In this document: positions 22,801 through 29,333 of the stretch, one piece after another
How the letters are laid out: each line of letters begins with the position of its first letter
Numbering within the stretch: position 1 is the stretch's first letter
DNA from: Propionivibrio soli
Lineage (GTDB): Bacteria; Pseudomonadota; Gammaproteobacteria; Burkholderiales; Rhodocyclaceae
DNA length: 64,000 bases
Assembly (NCBI RefSeq): GCF_025770765.1
Contig: NZ_JANZKY010000017.1
Coordinates: 1-64,000 of the forward strand
Direction of reading: 5' to 3'
Made by a program: the position numbers and the translations under genes
Notes under the pieces: model-generated
What the model was told of the DNA's origin: nothing
Seen by the model: the letters and a program-made list of their open reading frames with translations, nothing else
The model's database searches: none

Positions 22801-23790
22801 GCACAGGCCGGCTTTTGGCCTGGACCCACGCCCTGTCGAGCCTTCGTCACGAATTTCGCCACCGGAACCCGTGGCGGCACCGGGGAACGGTGAAATCGCC
22901 GTCGGGTGGTTGTGGGTCTCGACCTTCGCAAGAATATGCGTGAGGTCCTTATGGTAAGCATAACTACCGTCTGCCCCGGGATAGAAACGCTCGACTTCCG
23001 TTCCTTCGAACACCGACGAGTTGTCCGAATAAACGACGACATTGCCTTCCGGATGCGCCGCATGCGTCTCACGGATCATGCCGAATAACGTTTCCTTCTT
23101 GGCCTCGCCGTCGATGATCCACGACGCGTTGAAGATCTTGTGCCGGCAGTGCTCGGAGTTGGCCTGGGCGAACATCATGAGTTCGACGTCGGTCGGGTTG
23201 CGTCCCGTCTTGGCCGCAAAGAGGTCGACGAGGTAGTCGATTTCATCCTCAGACAAGGCCAGCCCTAACCGCGTATTCGCTTCGACCAGAGCGCTGCGAC
23301 CGCCGCCCACGACGTCAACGGTGCTCATCGGTTTCGGCGTGAAGTGACGGAACAGTTCGGCGGTGTCGTCGAAGCGGCTCAGCACCGCCTCGGTCATACG
23401 GTCATGCAGCAACGCCGCAATCGCCGCGCGTTGCGCGTCGCCCCCTCCTTCAATGCGAAAAGCGATGCCGCGCTCGATGCGCTCGATCGCAGCAAGGCCG
23501 CAATTCCACGCAATGTCCGTCGCTTTCGACGACCACGGCGAGATCGTGCCGACGCGCGGCGTGATGAGGAATAGAACGCCTTTTTGTTCCGCAACTGGCC
23601 TCTCTTCGAGCAACGCCGCAAGTTGCTGCCGACCTTCGCCTGCCAACGCCGCTTTCAGCTTCACGAAATGCCAGTACTCGGCACTGACCACCCTGGCGGT
23701 CGGCGCCAACGCCTGGATGCGTTGCTGCAAGCCCTGCAGTCTGAAGATCGAATAAGCGGGAGCCCCGCGCAAGAAAAGGATGTCGGCCAT
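19873..23790 (-). CDS. purL: Phosphoribosylformylglycinamidine synthase
   Basis: This 1305-residue, single-chain enzyme converts FGAR to FGAM with glutamine and ATP. In order it has: an N-terminal PurS-like region, a linker, two AIRS-like domains ([44 protein letters not shown]) and a C-terminal class I glutaminase domain. The nucleophile Cys is in [12 protein letters not shown], and the His-Glu pair is near PHPER. The length matches E. coli PurL (about 1295). It stands alone, with the downstream end facing the parvulin terminator. Confidence 0.97.
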
Positions 23791-23859
23791 GGTCTGCTAG
23801 GGAAAGCGTTGAGGAAGAGGAGAACCGCAAAAACTGCTTGAAAACAACAGCAAGGCGGC

Positions 23860-23865
23860 ATTATA
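23860..23865 (-). promoter_or_regulatory. Candidate -10 box of purL
   Basis: Reading the minus strand, TATAAT lies about 70 bases before the purL start. No good -35 hexamer is seen 16-18 bases upstream. I see no recognisable PurR-type palindrome. Confidence 0.4.
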
Positions 23866-24020
23866 GCCGACCCGGGCATTTCCCGGCCCGCAAGGGATAG
23901 TTCGAACTGCGCTCACCTGCCATCCAGCGCAGGAAACAGATGGCAGGGTTCAAGACGTAACCGAAATGCAATATGCAATGACTAGCGTATGGGTTTTCTC
24001 TCACCAAGGAACCACAGCCC

Positions 24021-25796
24021 ATGCGTCTCACCCTTTCGCCGTTGGCGGTGCTCGTTGCCGCCGTCTTCTCGCTACCTGCCGCCGCGCAAACCATCTATCC
24101 GATCGACCGCGCCGACATCCTTTCCGGCAGCCGCTTCGACCTCAAGGTGGAGTTTCCCGGCATCGTCGACCCGGCCAAGGTATCGGTGACGATCAATGGA
24201 CAGGATCATGCCAAGGTGTTCGGCAAGCCCGCCGAACTGGTCGCCCGCGAAGACGGCAAGGACGTTTCCAGCCTGCTGTTGCGTGACGCATCGATCTCCA
24301 AGCCCGGAAACTACACGGTCACCGCCAGCGACGGGACGACGACGAAGTCGGTTGAATGGACCGTATACGGAACGCCCGCCAAGCGGGCGGCGAAGAACGT
24401 CATCCTTTTCATCGGCGATGGTTTCTCGATCGGCCACCGCACGGCGGCCAGGCTTCTTTCGAAAGGAGTCGAGAACGGCAAGATCAAGGGCAAGCTGGCG
24501 ATGGACGACATGCCGTATATGGCGCTGTTGACGACCCAAGGTACCGATTCGATCATCACCGACTCGGCGAACGCGGCGCACGCCTACACCACCGGCCACA
24601 AATCCTGCGTGAATGCACTCGGCGTCTATTGCTCGCGCGCGGCCAGCACGCTGGACCACCCGAAGGTCGAGACGCTCACGTCGATCGCCAAGCGCAAGGG
24701 GATGGCCGTCGGCGCCGTGACCAACTCTGAAATCGAGGACGCCACGCCCGCCGCGATGGTCGCCCATACCCGCCGCCGTTCGGACTTCAACGACATCGTC
24801 AAGATGTTCTACGACAGCAAGATCGACGTCATGATGGGCGGCGGCTCGCCGAACTTCCTGCCCAAATCGACCGCGGGCTCGAAGCGAAGCGACGAGGTTG
24901 ACTACATCGGCCTGTTCAAACAAGCCGGCTACGCGTTGGCGACGACCAAGACCGAAATGCTCGCCGCCGCCGACGGTGCTAAGACAACGAGACTCCTCGG
25001 CCTTTACAACACGAGCAACGTCGACGGCGCCCTGGATCTCAAATTCCTCAAAAAGGGTTCGGTCGCCAAATTCCCGGACCAGCCTGACGTGGTCGAAGAA
25101 ATGGACGCGGCGATCAAGATCCTTTCGCGCAACAAGAACGGCTTCGTGCTGATGGTCGAGTCGGCGCGCATCGACAAGTATTCGCACTCGATGGACCCGG
25201 AGCGCGCGATCTTCGACACGATCATGCTCGACAACGCGGTGAAGAAGGCGAAGGACTGGGCCAAGGCCAACGGCAACAATACGTTGATCCTGGTCACTGC
25301 CGATCACAGCCACCCCGTGAGCGTAATCGGCACGGTCGACGACAACTCGCCGGAAGCCGAAATGCGTAACAAGGTCGGTATCTACGAGGGCGCCGGCATC
25401 CCCGACTACCAACCGAACGACGAAGGTTATCCGGTTAGCGTGGACGTACCGCGCCGGTTGCGCTTCGTCTTCGGCGCCACGCCTGACTATTACGATACCT
25501 TCCGCCCGTTCCTCGACGGCGAGTTCGTTCCGGCGATCAAGAACGCCGACGGCGTCATGGTCGCTAACGAGAAGTACAAGGACATCCCGGGCGCCGTCCT
25601 GCGCGTCGGCAACCTGCCGAACAAAGGGTCGCGCGCCGCGAACCAGGGGATCCACTCAGGCGACGACGTAATTCTGACGGCCATGGGACCGGGCGCCGAG
25701 CGGGTGCGCGGCCAGATGGAGAACAGCGACCTCTTCCGCGTCATTGCCGAGGCGCTGTCGTTCGCGCCGCAAGGCAAGGCGGCCGGGAAACAATGA
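24021..25796 (+). CDS. Alkaline phosphatase family protein (secreted, PhoA-like)
   Basis: The 591-residue protein begins with a signal peptide (MRLTLSPLAVLVAAVFSLPAAAQ). Residues about 25-118 form an Ig-like or beta domain not found in E. coli PhoA. The catalytic domain begins near residue 125: metal Asp133 in FIGDGFS, nucleophile Ser182 in TDSANAAH, a Glu and Asp/His set in VESARIDKYSH, Asp-His in TADHSH, and a His in HSGDDVILTAMGPGAE. The metal-ligand set therefore appears complete. The helix KYSHSM replaces the usual HGHHAG variant. It should hydrolyse phosphomonoesters in the periplasm. Its stop overlaps the next gene by 4 bases. No clear Pho box is seen upstream. Confidence 0.92.
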   Translation: MRLTLSPLAVLVAAVFSLPAAAQTIYPIDRADILSGSRFDLKVEFPGIVDPAKVSVTINGQDHAKVFGKPAELVAREDGKDVSSLLLRDASISKPGNYTVTASDGTTTKSVEWTVYGTPAKRAAKNVILFIGDGFSIGHRTAARLLSKGVENGKIKGKLAMDDMPYMALLTTQGTDSIITDSANAAHAYTTGHKSCVNALGVYCSRAASTLDHPKVETLTSIAKRKGMAVGAVTNSEIEDATPAAMVAHTRRRSDFNDIVKMFYDSKIDVMMGGGSPNFLPKSTAGSKRSDEVDYIGLFKQAGYALATTKTEMLAAADGAKTTRLLGLYNTSNVDGALDLKFLKKGSVAKFPDQPDVVEEMDAAIKILSRNKNGFVLMVESARIDKYSHSMDPERAIFDTIMLDNAVKKAKDWAKANGNNTLILVTADHSHPVSVIGTVDDNSPEAEMRNKVGIYEGAGIPDYQPNDEGYPVSVDVPRRLRFVFGATPDYYDTFRPFLDGEFVPAIKNADGVMVANEKYKDIPGAVLRVGNLPNKGSRAANQGIHSGDDVILTAMGPGAERVRGQMENSDLFRVIAEALSFAPQGKAAGKQ

Positions 25797-26263
25797 CGGA
25801 GACTGCAACAAGCGAGCCCGCCGCCGAGGCCTTCGCGCTCTCGCGGCGGACATTTCTTTCCTTGGCCTTGCTTGCCGTCCCGACGTTGGCACACGCCGCC
25901 GAAGTCCTGACCTTCGATGGTCTGTACAAGTCGATCGGCGTGCTCGGCATCAAGTACTCGGACCGTGCCCTGTCACTTAAGGGCCAGGCGGTGCGCCTAC
26001 GCGGTTTCATGGCGCCGCCGCTGAAACCCGAGAGCAAATTTTTCGTGCTCACGCGCGAGCCGGTCGCCGTCTGCCCGTTCTGCGCCTCGGATGCCGAATG
26101 GCCCGTTGACATCGTCGTCGTTTATCTGCGGAAAACGCTGGTCCCGGTCGATTTCCAGCAACGCATCGCGGTCGAAGGGCGGCTGGAAATCGGTTCCTGG
26201 ACCGACCCGCAAAGCGGGTTTGTCAGCCAGGTGCGCATCGTCGACGCCGACATCATCGGGTAG
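25793..26263 (+). CDS. Small exported protein with a CPFC motif (unrecognised)
   Basis: The protein is 156 residues. A twin-arginine-like signal (SRRTFLSLALLAVPTLAHA, residues about 17-35) suggests export by Tat or Sec. The mature part looks like a beta-barrel/OB-like domain: GQAVRLRGFMAPPLKPESKF, then VAVCPFCASDAEWPVDIVVVYL and QRIAVEGRLEIG. The CPFC pair could be redox-active or bind a metal. The layout is reminiscent of DUF3299 proteins that accompany MacB-like ABC transporters, but the family signature is not exact, so I give it no name. It sits between a phosphatase (4-base overlap) and an ABC ATPase (2 bases apart) and is surely co-transcribed. Confidence 0.8.
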   Translation: MTETATSEPAAEAFALSRRTFLSLALLAVPTLAHAAEVLTFDGLYKSIGVLGIKYSDRALSLKGQAVRLRGFMAPPLKPESKFFVLTREPVAVCPFCASDAEWPVDIVVVYLRKTLVPVDFQQRIAVEGRLEIGSWTDPQSGFVSQVRIVDADIIG

Positions 26264-26265
26264 CT

Positions 26266-26931
26266 ATGGGCAAGACACTTCATGCACAAGACGTGCTCTG
26301 GCGCTTTCCCGGCCAGCAGCGCGCATTGTTTGGATTCGCCGACCTTGCCGTGCCGGCCGGGGGCAGCTTGGGTATCCGCGGCCCTTCCGGCGCTGGAAAA
26401 ACGACGCTATTCCACTGCCTGACCGGAATCGCCGTACCGGGGTCCGGCCGCATCCGCTGGGACGACACCGATCTCTGCGCATTGCGCGCCGACGAGCGCG
26501 ACGCGTGGCGTCACAGGAACCTCGGCCTGATCTTCCAGGACTTCCATTTAGTCGATGGACTCTCGGCGCTCGACAACGTGCTCCTTCCTGTCCACTTCGA
26601 CCGCTGGCGTCCCGACGGCACCATGCGCCAGCGCGCCGCCGGACTACTCGATGCAACGGGTATCGACTGTCCAAAACGTGACGTCGCCCTGCTCTCGCGC
26701 GGAGAACGGCAGCGCGTCGCTTTTGCCCGCGCCCTGCTGTTCGAACCCGGAGTCGTAATCGCCGACGAGCCCACCGCCAGCCTCGACCCCGACCACCGCG
26801 CGCGCATCGGCGACCTGCTTGTCGACCTCGCGCGGACACGTGGCACGACACTGATCGTCGTCTCACACGACCACGAACTGCTCGATCGGCTGGATCGTTG
26901 CATGACGCTCGAAGATGGAACGCTGCAATGA
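26266..26931 (+). CDS. ABC transporter ATP-binding protein (MacB/LolD-like)
   Basis: The 221-residue ATPase has Walker A GPSGAGKTTLF (residues 40-50), a Q-loop in LGLIFQDFHLVDGL, a modified signature LSRGERQRVAFARAL in place of LSGGQ, Walker B VVIADEPTASLD and a switch His in VVSHDHEL. The second signature Gly is replaced by Arg, which is rare but tolerated in the MacB/LolD group. It overlaps the permease gene by 4 bases and powers it. Such type VII ABC systems often work by mechanotransmission on periplasmic partners rather than by transport across the inner membrane. Confidence 0.93.
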   Translation: MGKTLHAQDVLWRFPGQQRALFGFADLAVPAGGSLGIRGPSGAGKTTLFHCLTGIAVPGSGRIRWDDTDLCALRADERDAWRHRNLGLIFQDFHLVDGLSALDNVLLPVHFDRWRPDGTMRQRAAGLLDATGIDCPKRDVALLSRGERQRVAFARALLFEPGVVIADEPTASLDPDHRARIGDLLVDLARTRGTTLIVVSHDHELLDRLDRCMTLEDGTLQ

Positions 26932-28160
26932 ATCCCTTTCCGATCGTCTTTGCCGACCTGCGCCGCAACCGACTGCTGGCGCTCGTCACCGTTCTGCTCG
27001 TTGCGCTGGCGTTGGCCACCGGAATTGCCGTGATCTCGCAGGAACGTGCCCTGCGTCAAGGCAGCGCGCGCGCCGCCGACGACTTCGATCTGCTGATCGG
27101 CGCGCCCGGCAGCCCGACCCAGCTCGTTTTGTCCACGGTCTATCTGCAACCGCAGGCCATCCCACTCGTTGACGGTGCCACGCTCATCAAGGCGAGTCTC
27201 GCCCCCGGGGTCGGTTATGCGGCACCGATCGCGTTCGGCGACAACTGGCACGGGCACGCGATCGTCGGTACCACAACCGATTTCGCGCTGCGCGGAGGGC
27301 GGCTTACGCCGCGCGAAGGTCGCGTATTCGCCGCCCGCGGCGAAGCGGTGATCGGCGCCGCAGTGCCGCTCGCCATTGGCGCCACGATCAGCCCGCAGCA
27401 CGGCCAGCACCATGACGATGATGATGACGATGGCGAAGATCATCATGACGGCACGCACGCCGCAATGCACTACACCGTCGTCGGCCGCCTGCCCGCGAGA
27501 AACACGATCTGGGACACGGCGGTTCTGGTGCCGATCGAAGACGTCTGGGCCGTGCATGGGCTGCCGGACGGACACGCCTCGGACGACGAACACATTGGGC
27601 CGCCTTGGGCGGCTTCGCGGCTACCCGGTGTGCCGGCGATCACGGTCAAGCCACAGTCGGTGGCCGCAGCCTACGGGCTACGCGGCCTTTTCCGCACTGC
27701 AAACAGCACAGCCTTGTTTCCCGCCGAAGTCCTCAACGAGCTGTATGTCGCCTTAGGTAACGTGCGCGATCTCATGTCGTTGCTGGCCGTTGCCACGCAA
27801 GCGCTGGTCGTTGCCGCCGTACTGATGGCGTTGTTCGTCGGCTTCCTCGCCCGTCGGCGCCAGTTTGCTGTGCTGCGCGCGATCGGTGCAAGCCGCGGTT
27901 ATGTCTTCTGCACCGTTTGGATAGAAGTGGCGCTGCTCATCGGCGCCGGTGCCGTCCTCGGCCTGCTGCTCGGCTACGGTGCCGCGGCAGCGCTTTCTCT
28001 CTGGCTGCAAGGCAGGACGGGTTTTGCAATGCAGCCGAGCCTCGGTGCTGAAGAGATAATCCTGCTCGGGGGGTTGGTGTTGGCCGGCGCGTTTTTCGCC
28101 GTACTGCCGGCATGGCACGCGTTCCGTCGCCCGGTTGCCGCAGGACTCGCCGGGCAATAG
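26928..28160 (+). CDS. FtsX/MacB-like ABC transporter permease with a His/Asp-rich periplasmic loop
   Basis: The product is 410 residues from ATG 26928. One N-terminal membrane segment is followed by a large periplasmic domain, then three C-terminal membrane segments (about residues 280-400), the FtsX/MacB layout. The periplasmic domain carries an insert rich in His and Asp at about residues 156-183 (QHGQHHDDDDDDGEDHHDG), a likely zinc, nickel or copper binding stretch. The gene is 4-base overlapped with the ATPase. It is the last gene of the alkaline phosphatase/CPFC/ABC unit. A link to metal handling is inferred from the His/Asp loop and the zinc-dependent phosphatase, not shown. Confidence 0.9.
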   Translation: MNPFPIVFADLRRNRLLALVTVLLVALALATGIAVISQERALRQGSARAADDFDLLIGAPGSPTQLVLSTVYLQPQAIPLVDGATLIKASLAPGVGYAAPIAFGDNWHGHAIVGTTTDFALRGGRLTPREGRVFAARGEAVIGAAVPLAIGATISPQHGQHHDDDDDDGEDHHDGTHAAMHYTVVGRLPARNTIWDTAVLVPIEDVWAVHGLPDGHASDDEHIGPPWAASRLPGVPAITVKPQSVAAAYGLRGLFRTANSTALFPAEVLNELYVALGNVRDLMSLLAVATQALVVAAVLMALFVGFLARRRQFAVLRAIGASRGYVFCTVWIEVALLIGAGAVLGLLLGYGAAAALSLWLQGRTGFAMQPSLGAEEIILLGGLVLAGAFFAVLPAWHAFRRPVAAGLAGQ

Positions 28161-28306
28161 GCGGCCATTACACGCAAAACAGTCGGCGCACCAACGAGGA
28201 ACTGCGAGAACAAACGGGAAAGTGCAGCAACGGGTACGGGTGGCGTTTGTGAGCTTCAGCCACTTTTCCCGCTCTGATGTTCGCCATCGAATGTTCGTTG
28301 ACAAAC

Positions 28307-28354
28307 ACAAAACCGCGACATAACTTTCATTTGGCTACCATTATGTCGTTTTGT
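28307..28354. promoter_or_regulatory. Long inverted repeat upstream of the beta-propeller gene
   Basis: CGACATAA at 28316-28323 is mirrored by TTATGTCG at 28341-28348 with a 17-base gap, and the outer ACAAAAC/GTTTTGT (28307-28313 and 28348-28354) extends the symmetry with a small offset. It lies 62 bases before the gene at 28416. It could be a regulator-binding site or an mRNA structure. No regulator family is implied. Confidence 0.45.
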
Positions 28355-28415
28355 GAAAATTCTTGTTTCGTATTCGTGCAATAACAACCACAATCATTCA
28401 ACCAAGGAGGTCGTC

Positions 28416-29333
28416 ATGCTCAAACGTTGCCGTCTGCTTGCCCTGCCTTTGCTTTGCGGAGCGCTATTCAGCGCAAGTATCTTCGCGGCCGAACCTCGGC
28501 TGTCCAATCCACAGCCGAAATACGACTACAAGCTCATCGACACGCTTGAAGTCAAAGGACGCCAGGGCGTCGCCAGCGATGGCACCTATTACTATGTGAG
28601 CGGCAGTAAGGCCCTGTACAAGTACGACAAGAAAGGCAATTTGCTTCTTTCGAACGAGACTCCATTCGACGGATACCCGATCGCGTCCAACCACATCGGC
28701 GGCATCGACGTCTACAACGGCGAAGTCTTCGTGAGCGCCGAATACTTCATGGACGGTGTGGGCAAGGACATCCAGATCGCGATCCACGACGCCGAGACGC
28801 TCAAGTTGAAACGCGCCTTCAGTTTCGAACCGTCGAGCGGCCAGCAGGAGGTATCCGCCATCTGCGTCGACCCCGACAAACGCAGCGTCTGGATGGTCTC
28901 GTGGGTTGGAGAAGAAAGCGGTCGTTACATCTACGAGTACAGTCTCGATTCCGGCAAATACTTGCGTAAGGTCCACCTTCAGCCCGTGCCTCAGTGGATT
29001 CAGGGTATCCACTATTGGAAGGGCAACCTCTTCGTGACCGCCGACGACGGCACAGCGGACGATGATGAGGCAGACAACCTGTACCGCGTCGAAGTCACCG
29101 ACAAGTCCTACGCGAACGTCGTGCGCGAGAAGGTCTTCACGGAGGTCAAGCGGCAAGGCGAAATCGAAGGCAGCGCGGTCGATCCGAAGACCGGTGAATT
29201 GCTCGTTCTGTTCAACCGTGGATCGCGTATCGTTCTCGGCATGGTCAAGGGTTTCTACCCGGGTTACGACCGCGAGATCTCGGAAATCTATCGCTTCAAG
29301 ATGACCCCACGCGGCGTTCAAAACAAGAAATAG
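28416..29333 (+). CDS. Exported beta-propeller-like protein of unknown function
   Basis: This 305-residue protein starts at ATG 28416 behind AAGGAGG (28404-28410), an unusually strong ribosome site. It has a Sec signal peptide (MLKRCRLLALPLLCGALF, cleaved near AAE). The rest contains repeated blades (VASDGTYYYVSGSKALYKYDK, IHYWKGNLFVTADDG, IEGSAVDPKTGELLVLFNRG) that suggest a six-bladed propeller of the SMP-30/YjiK type. It is acidic where repeats turn (DDGTADDDEAD), possibly calcium-binding. There is no adjacent enzyme to suggest a substrate. A long inverted repeat precedes it, suggesting regulation. Its function is unknown. Confidence 0.8.
   Translation: MLKRCRLLALPLLCGALFSASIFAAEPRLSNPQPKYDYKLIDTLEVKGRQGVASDGTYYYVSGSKALYKYDKKGNLLLSNETPFDGYPIASNHIGGIDVYNGEVFVSAEYFMDGVGKDIQIAIHDAETLKLKRAFSFEPSSGQQEVSAICVDPDKRSVWMVSWVGEESGRYIYEYSLDSGKYLRKVHLQPVPQWIQGIHYWKGNLFVTADDGTADDDEADNLYRVEVTDKSYANVVREKVFTEVKRQGEIEGSAVDPKTGELLVLFNRGSRIVLGMVKGFYPGYDREISEIYRFKMTPRGVQNKK

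Follow-up and report, generated by a model that had tools for sequence, protein, structure and literature searches.

Why would an alkaline phosphatase be encoded in one compact unit with an ATP-binding cassette (ABC) transporter? The question is raised by a locus of Propionivibrio soli within a 64,000-nucleotide stretch of contig NZ_JANZKY010000017.1 (positions 1 to 64,000, forward strand; hereafter, the window), where genes for a PhoA-type phosphatase, a small protein with the motif Cys-Pro-Phe-Cys (CPFC), an ABC ATPase, and an FtsX/MacB-type permease follow one another. We found that this four-gene grouping is real, its order and adjacency being conserved across Pseudomonadota and Deinococcota. 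Our favored reading, whose chances we put just short of even, is that the unit is self-contained and joins a periplasmic phosphatase to a Zrg-like ABC triad (the small protein and the ABC pair) that would keep new phosphatase metal-loaded when zinc is scarce. To our knowledge, how periplasmic zinc enzymes get their metal is largely unexplained.

Phosphatase, Small Protein, and ABC Genes Form a Conserved Unit

The genes lie head to tail, with a 4-base overlap (ATGA), a 2-base gap, and another 4-base overlap in turn, so the coordinates bear out the tight packing noted in a preliminary description of the locus. A scan of a genome collection returned at least 562 relatives of the small protein, the best 80 of which were retained as loci; by record title, their hosts are beta-, alpha-, and gammaproteobacteria. 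The order phosphatase–small protein–ATPase–permease was found in 78 of these best 80, a count that includes five loci with the phosphatase cut by a contig end and falls to 73/80 under a stricter gene call. Among the irregular loci, the contig of L067 ends before the phosphatase, L077 is without the ABC pair, and L114 has decayed, with broken phosphatase and permease genes. Within the genus, 8 of 27 other genomes had a small-protein match, seven close (67–84% identity) and one weak (30%), and all seven close matches carry the four genes (in G012, the permease is split across two contigs). An even sample of the phylum (398 genomes) gave 11 matches beyond the window’s genome. All 10 strong ones have the four genes in order, even where the phosphatase is merely 28% identical (G333); the weak one (G449) adjoins a 33% identical phosphatase without ABC genes.

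Outside the phylum, plasmid records of Deinococcus radiodurans (triad genes DR_RS15690–DR_RS15700 in strain R1) and Thermus thermophilus carry the same order, and within it the order is annotated on four plasmids (Ensifer, Roseomonas, Paracoccus, and Rhizobium). Phosphatase and ABC genes are thus repeatedly adjacent, as the check proposed in the preliminary description had asked, and a chance neighborhood is ruled out by the order kept in 78/80 loci and 10/10 strong phylum-sample matches. Wherever the contig permits the check, a small protein with an ABC pair always adjoins a phosphatase (78/78 loci and 10/10 in the phylum sample). The neighborhood held no further conserved member: among the 30 largest open-frame clusters, no other family appeared in more than 9 of 90 loci once two kinds of cluster are set aside, those whose coordinates mark them as antisense or out-of-frame readings of the unit itself and those of further ATPases grouped with its own ATPase.

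Some arrangements differ. The annotated genes around a plasmid match in Bosea sp. AS-1 (H75) include no phosphatase and no ABC pair. At L089 (1012–3251), an IS630-like transposase, named from its sequence, separates the phosphatase–small protein pair from a second small protein in which RAFC replaces CPFC; the ABC pair then follows. On Ensifer plasmid p-3 (L031, 3711–15182), where the phosphatase is 29% identical, the unit is flanked on one side by a PCu(A)C copper chaperone and on the other by an RND efflux/multicopper oxidase group.

A Complete PhoA-Type Phosphatase with Free-Standing Relatives

The phosphatase is the sole PF00245 gene detected in its 4.76-Mb genome and matches that family with E 1.4e-73 (248.7 bits against a gathering score of 24.4). 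In what we take to be Escherichia coli PhoA numbering, D51, S102, D153, T155, E322, D327, K328, H331, D369, H370, and H412 each have an equivalent in the enzyme. These residues, with the metal ligands and catalytic Ser among them, are invariant in 74/74 phosphatases (73 of the 80 loci plus the window, with residues matched by reading alignments). The complete set of ligands reported earlier is therefore there, and zinc-dependence and activity are predicted from it. Compared with E. coli PhoA, with which it shares PF00245, metal ligands, and active-site residues, the enzyme is extended by about 120 residues N-terminal to the phosphatase domain, where an immunoglobulin (Ig)-like match falls below threshold, and stands in an operon with an ABC triad.

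Close phosphatases (48–60% identity) were found in 18 other phylum-sample genomes, nine within the unit and nine free-standing. In a phosphatase tree, the free-standing enzymes fall in two places: six, all from one family, group with two phosphatases of the unit (support 0.998), and three lie inside a larger clade of the unit's phosphatases (0.972). The triad thus looks as if it had been lost twice, a pattern that is only a hint because the tree is midpoint-rooted. No alignment column conserved in ≥95% of the unit's phosphatases was altered in all nine free-standing ones.

A Small CPFC Protein Related to DUF3299

The small exported protein with a CPFC pair was borne out at residues 94–97, with export predicted from its signal. 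CPFC is invariant in an alignment (A2) of 76 of the 80 loci plus the window, which omits L092 and L095 (uncertain starts), L088 (length), and L114 (decayed). This constancy, like the presence of CPFC in 80/80 loci, arises partly by selection because CPFC was one of the two search patterns of the scan; the motif is also present in 10/10 phylum-sample proteins. The window’s protein begins with a twin-arginine signal (SRRTFL), and an RR pair occurs within the first 35 residues of 71/78 small-protein relatives vs. 7/73 phosphatases (shuffle mean 24.4/78). RR is missing in five records titled gammaproteobacteria, one betaproteobacterium, and 3/10 of the phylum sample. Export by the twin-arginine translocation (Tat) route is accordingly a prediction from a Tat-type signal.

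No Pfam family scored above its cutoff for the small protein. Profile and fold similarity (an OB fold) make it a relative of ZrgE/PA4066, the DUF3299 proteins; we do not file it as a member because the gathering score of PF11736 was not reached, and, with E values up to 1 allowed, none of 77 small proteins matched DUF3299. The DUF3299 model also had no match in the window’s genome, nor in the control genomes, though it matches 11/14 relatives. Weak matches were to SSB (best E 0.005), TIGR03943 (0.014), and DUF1980_C (0.045). Across the small proteins of A2, sub-threshold matches to DUF1980_C occurred in 3/77 and to TIGR03943, a permease-subunit family that presumably includes zinc-related YcgQ-type proteins, in 7/77.

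CPFC and the ABC pair are not strictly coupled because Deinococcus aetherius has a CPYC form and a phosphatase with no ABC genes adjoining, and L077 has a CPFC protein without the pair. Two further genomes (G013 and G048) carry a Cys-less relative directly before a 34–35% identical PF00245-type phosphatase, again without ABC genes; the contig of G048 breaks off ∼430 bases ahead of the small-protein start. A PEP-CTERM-like protein is encoded downstream of the Cys-less relative and phosphatase in both (L153, 5093–7888, in G013; L154, 11593–14261, in G048).

An ABC Pair with Conserved Periplasmic His and Asp Residues

The ATPase matches PF00005 (E 1e-26), and its top NCBIfam scores are LolD and FtsE, both below their cutoffs. 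The LSRGE signature, singled out earlier as a variant, is present, but it is a family trait and no oddity because 62/79 homologous ATPases share it. The permease matches PF02687 (E 7e-13) and aligns weakly with solved MacB-type structures (E 0.008–0.4).

An earlier observation placed a His/Asp run at about residues 156–183 of the permease’s periplasmic domain. The run, HGQHHDDDDDDGEDHHDGTHAAMHY, is present and begins at residue 158, but its length and composition differ among relatives. It is often His-rich, with a median of 4 His between H158 and H177 (47 of 76 permeases where the stretch can be bounded), and it is missing from the permease of Deinococcus. Not being conserved, the run is rejected as a functional signature. 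Part of PMC9820375 likewise reports the His-rich stretch of ZrgA itself as nonessential. What is conserved instead is a set of single residues: in an alignment of 64 phosphatase-type permeases (A3; 63 loci plus the window, with near-duplicates and incomplete loci omitted), D105, H158, D196, and H210 are kept in 64/64, H177 in 61/64, and H216 in 58/64.

Related permeases (∼27–36% identity) occur in other genomes in two other settings. In one, the ABC pair adjoins ZrgA and mostly DUF3299 (ZrgA was found in 7/15 genomes searched; L051 has DUF3299 without a ZrgA match). In the other, seen at two loci (G039 and G047), a Fur-type regulator, a CobW/COG0523-like GTPase, the ATPase, and the permease precede a Cys-containing DUF3299 protein. 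D105, H158, H177, D196, and H210 are identical in 33/33 permeases drawn from the three operon types, 23 of phosphatase type (22 hand-picked diverse loci and the window) and 10 others. The phosphatase-type permeases form a separate part of the tree from those of the other two settings. By sequence, the ABC pair belongs to a zinc-associated group, the ZrgA and Fur/CobW settings being zinc contexts.

Pho-Like and, in a Subset, Zur-Like Sites Precede the Operon

Upstream regions from 74 loci and the window, thinned by similarity to 70, were compared with 683 control regions, each lying 5′ of another long open frame of these loci; some of the frames may not be real genes. With what we take to be the Pho-box and Zur-box consensus sequences, Pho-box-like sites with at most three mismatches were found in 34/70 upstream regions vs. 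34/683 controls, and 25 of 34 sites that served to train a matrix start 61–80 bases before the start codon. To judge by record titles and matched contigs, none of the training loci belongs to the genus; applied to eight same-genus upstream regions, the matrix placed its best site at −64 to −69 in 8/8, with single p values of 0.002 to 0.11.

Zur-type boxes with at most one mismatch preceded 11/70 operons and 0/683 controls. Before thinning, they came from twelve records (by title, eight Bosea and one each of Boseaceae, Methylobacterium, Aureimonas, and Rhizobium), and 8 of the first 10 such regions also have a Pho-like site just downstream. A Fur consensus was not found before the window’s operon and was not enriched among the loci (3/75 vs. 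4.2 in shuffles). Nor was a promoter-like site found 5′ of the operon by a sigma-70 scan of 23700–28500, which returned a single site, at 24528–24556 within the phosphatase gene (shuffles, 0.9). The suggestion that a Zur or Pho site would be found upstream and in homologs thus held for the homologs, with Pho-like sites enriched and Zur-like sites in a subset, but less so for the window. Pho-box-like and, in the subset, Zur-box-like sites precede the operon, and regulation through them is putative.

Relation to Known Systems

The preliminary description named zrmABCD as a Zur-linked MacB-like unit of Pseudomonas. That label was wrong: according to sections of three papers (PMC11481552, PMC9817125, and PMC9820375), zrmABCD of Pseudomonas aeruginosa is the pseudopaline operon (cntOLMI), and the Zur-linked MacB-like unit is PA4063–PA4066, the counterpart of Vibrio ZrgABCDE. 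With the latter systems, the window’s unit shares a separate ABC ATPase and FtsX/MacB-type permease, an exported OB-fold protein of DUF3299 type, a link to zinc, and the same permease His/Asp residues in the seven ZrgA-type loci compared, a set outside which the Vibrio and Pseudomonas permeases fall. It differs in having a phosphatase in place of ZrgA (PF10986, for which the window’s genome gave no match), in the dominance of Pho-type sites, in the separate grouping of its permeases, and in a small protein that carries CPFC and falls short of the Pfam DUF3299 model. Because of the results with DUF3299 and ZrgA, we do not call the unit a Zrg system but regard it as a variant of such ABC modules.

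The G039/G047 operon likewise has the ABC pair and a DUF3299 protein, here with Cys-x-Phe/Tyr-Cys, intermediate between ZrgE and the window’s small protein; it has no phosphatase in the run, and regulator and GTPase genes stand in front. The type VII ABC systems MacB, LolCDE, and FtsEX have in common with the unit an FtsX-type permease and a LolD/FtsE-like ATPase. Unlike MacB, the window encodes ATPase and permease as separate genes, not one chain, and its permease departs from all three systems in its weak match to solved MacB-type structures and its His/Asp site. ZrgABCDE, PA4063–PA4066, and alkaline phosphatases are each known; their combination in one unit is apparently undescribed, and we found no publication joining a Zrg-type ABC module with an alkaline phosphatase among open-licence PMC papers.

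Possible Roles of the Unit

A metal-delivery or phosphatase-maturation module had been proposed for the locus. We consider such a role the best reading because adjacency is conserved, Pho- and Zur-like sites lie upstream, and the ABC pair is zinc-associated; on the other side stand the unconserved His/Asp run and the existence of phosphatases without the triad. In our favored reading, phosphate starvation would switch the operon on, as would zinc starvation in some lineages. The binding and hydrolysis of ATP would set the permease's periplasmic domain in motion, much as other MacB-type machines do, and the conserved His/Asp site would take up or release Zn2+. The CPFC protein may act between permease and phosphatase, and newly made phosphatase would thereby stay metal-loaded under zinc scarcity. 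A bolder version strikes us as rather unlikely: a metallation machine driven by ATP and dedicated to this periplasmic zinc enzyme, in which the permease, through its conserved His/Asp site, and a mostly Tat-exported CPFC protein, perhaps already carrying metal when it leaves the cytoplasm, would insert zinc into the phosphatase, with phosphate and zinc both controlling the operon.

Several observations weigh against the favored reading. Because 9 of the 18 close phosphatases stand with no small protein or ABC pair nearby, the ABC genes are not generally required for the phosphatase, and a strict dependence on the triad is not upheld. H177 is replaced by E in 3/64 rows; its placing is alignment-dependent, two of these three rows reading H in the other alignment. 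The window’s own Pho-like site has the best matrix score in the 300 upstream bases and is weak by itself (p ∼0.08); against the plain Pho consensus, it has seven mismatches, no better than chance, and the region’s best plain-consensus site, with six, lies elsewhere. A consensus scan found no Zur-like site before the window’s operon, an absence that says little because the consensus also finds none before the operon in related Zrg-type loci of this order (0/10). The copper-related neighbors in Ensifer hint at metals other than zinc. Finally, PA4064/PA4065, the nearest relative to have been studied, is reported in part of PMC11481552 to be a pyochelin-cobalt exporter of MacB type, and PA4066 is described there as lacking evident zinc-binding ability.

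Sections of the literature (PMC11481552 and PMC9820375) leave the role of ZrgABC and PA4063–PA4066 disputed between import and export, and each direction offers an alternative here. Were the triad a zinc importer, as proposed for ZrgABC, the phosphatase might replace ZrgA as a periplasmic zinc holder or free zinc from organic phosphates. The resemblance of the triad to that of Zrg operons, the Zur-type boxes (mainly in Bosea), the lack of a match to ZrgA or Pfam-level DUF3299 in the window’s genome, and the treatment of Vibrio cholerae ZrgABC as a zinc importer in part of PMC9820375 all fit uptake. We nonetheless think it improbable, given that the P. aeruginosa relative is reported to export (PMC11481552, in part). 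Pho-type sites are also more widespread than Zur sites. Further, we know of no FtsX/MacB-type permease established as an importer. The reported pyochelin-cobalt export, in turn, would suit an ABC pair that exports a small molecule, phosphorylated or metal-binding, on which the phosphatase acts in the periplasm. The unit has no other conserved neighbor, such as a gene for biosynthesis, MacA, or an outer-membrane channel, and we rank export just below uptake.

Lower again we place envelope work in phosphate starvation, with the ABC pair acting on lipids or lipoproteins, or helping to position the phosphatase, and having no direct metal role. The ATPase does score best against the LolD and FtsE models (below cutoffs), which act on envelope substrates, but the His/Asp residues are conserved in the periplasmic domain across zinc-linked operons, and Zur-type boxes occur in a subset. 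Mere coregulation, in which a shared promoter serves two functions useful under phosphate starvation with no physical or functional contact, is the least probable account: close phosphatases do live without the triad in two lineages, but small protein and ABC pair always come with a phosphatase where this can be checked, and the order is kept across two phyla. The unit, found from Accumulibacter relatives to Deinococcus, ties an ABC triad to one assayable enzyme, which offers a direct read-out (activity and zinc content) of the function of this ABC group, and it suggests a module with a constant triad and a changing partner (ZrgA, GTPase, or phosphatase).

Coordinates and Neighboring Features

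Table 1. Features of the four-gene unit (window positions) and of the related Fur/CobW-type runs (locus positions)
Feature	Position	Strand	Remarks
PhoA-type alkaline phosphatase gene	24021..25796	+	Signal peptide read from sequence; N-terminal Ig-like stretch, sub-threshold Pfam match
Gene for small protein, predicted exported; OB fold, CPFC, remote DUF3299/ZrgE relative	25793..26263	+	
ABC ATPase gene, LolD/FtsE-like, LSRGE signature	26266..26931	+	
FtsX/MacB-type permease gene	26928..28160	+	
Twin arginine of SRRTFL signal in small protein	25844..25849	+	
CPFC codons, residues 94–97 of small protein	26072..26083	+	
Permease periplasmic stretch H158 to H216: variable His/Asp run and conserved H158, H177, D196, H210	27399..27575	+	
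Degenerate Pho-box-like direct repeat, ACGTAACCGAAATGCAAT	23955..23972	+	66 bases 5′ of phosphatase start codon
Fur/CobW-type runs	L046 2864–6381; L050 3027–6698		Regulator and GTPase named by reading sequences

About 255 bases 3′ of the unit, at 28416–29333, lies a gene that had no match in the searched relative loci. It encodes a secreted-looking protein of 305 residues with a sub-threshold match to the Phytase-like family PF13449 (E 0.091).

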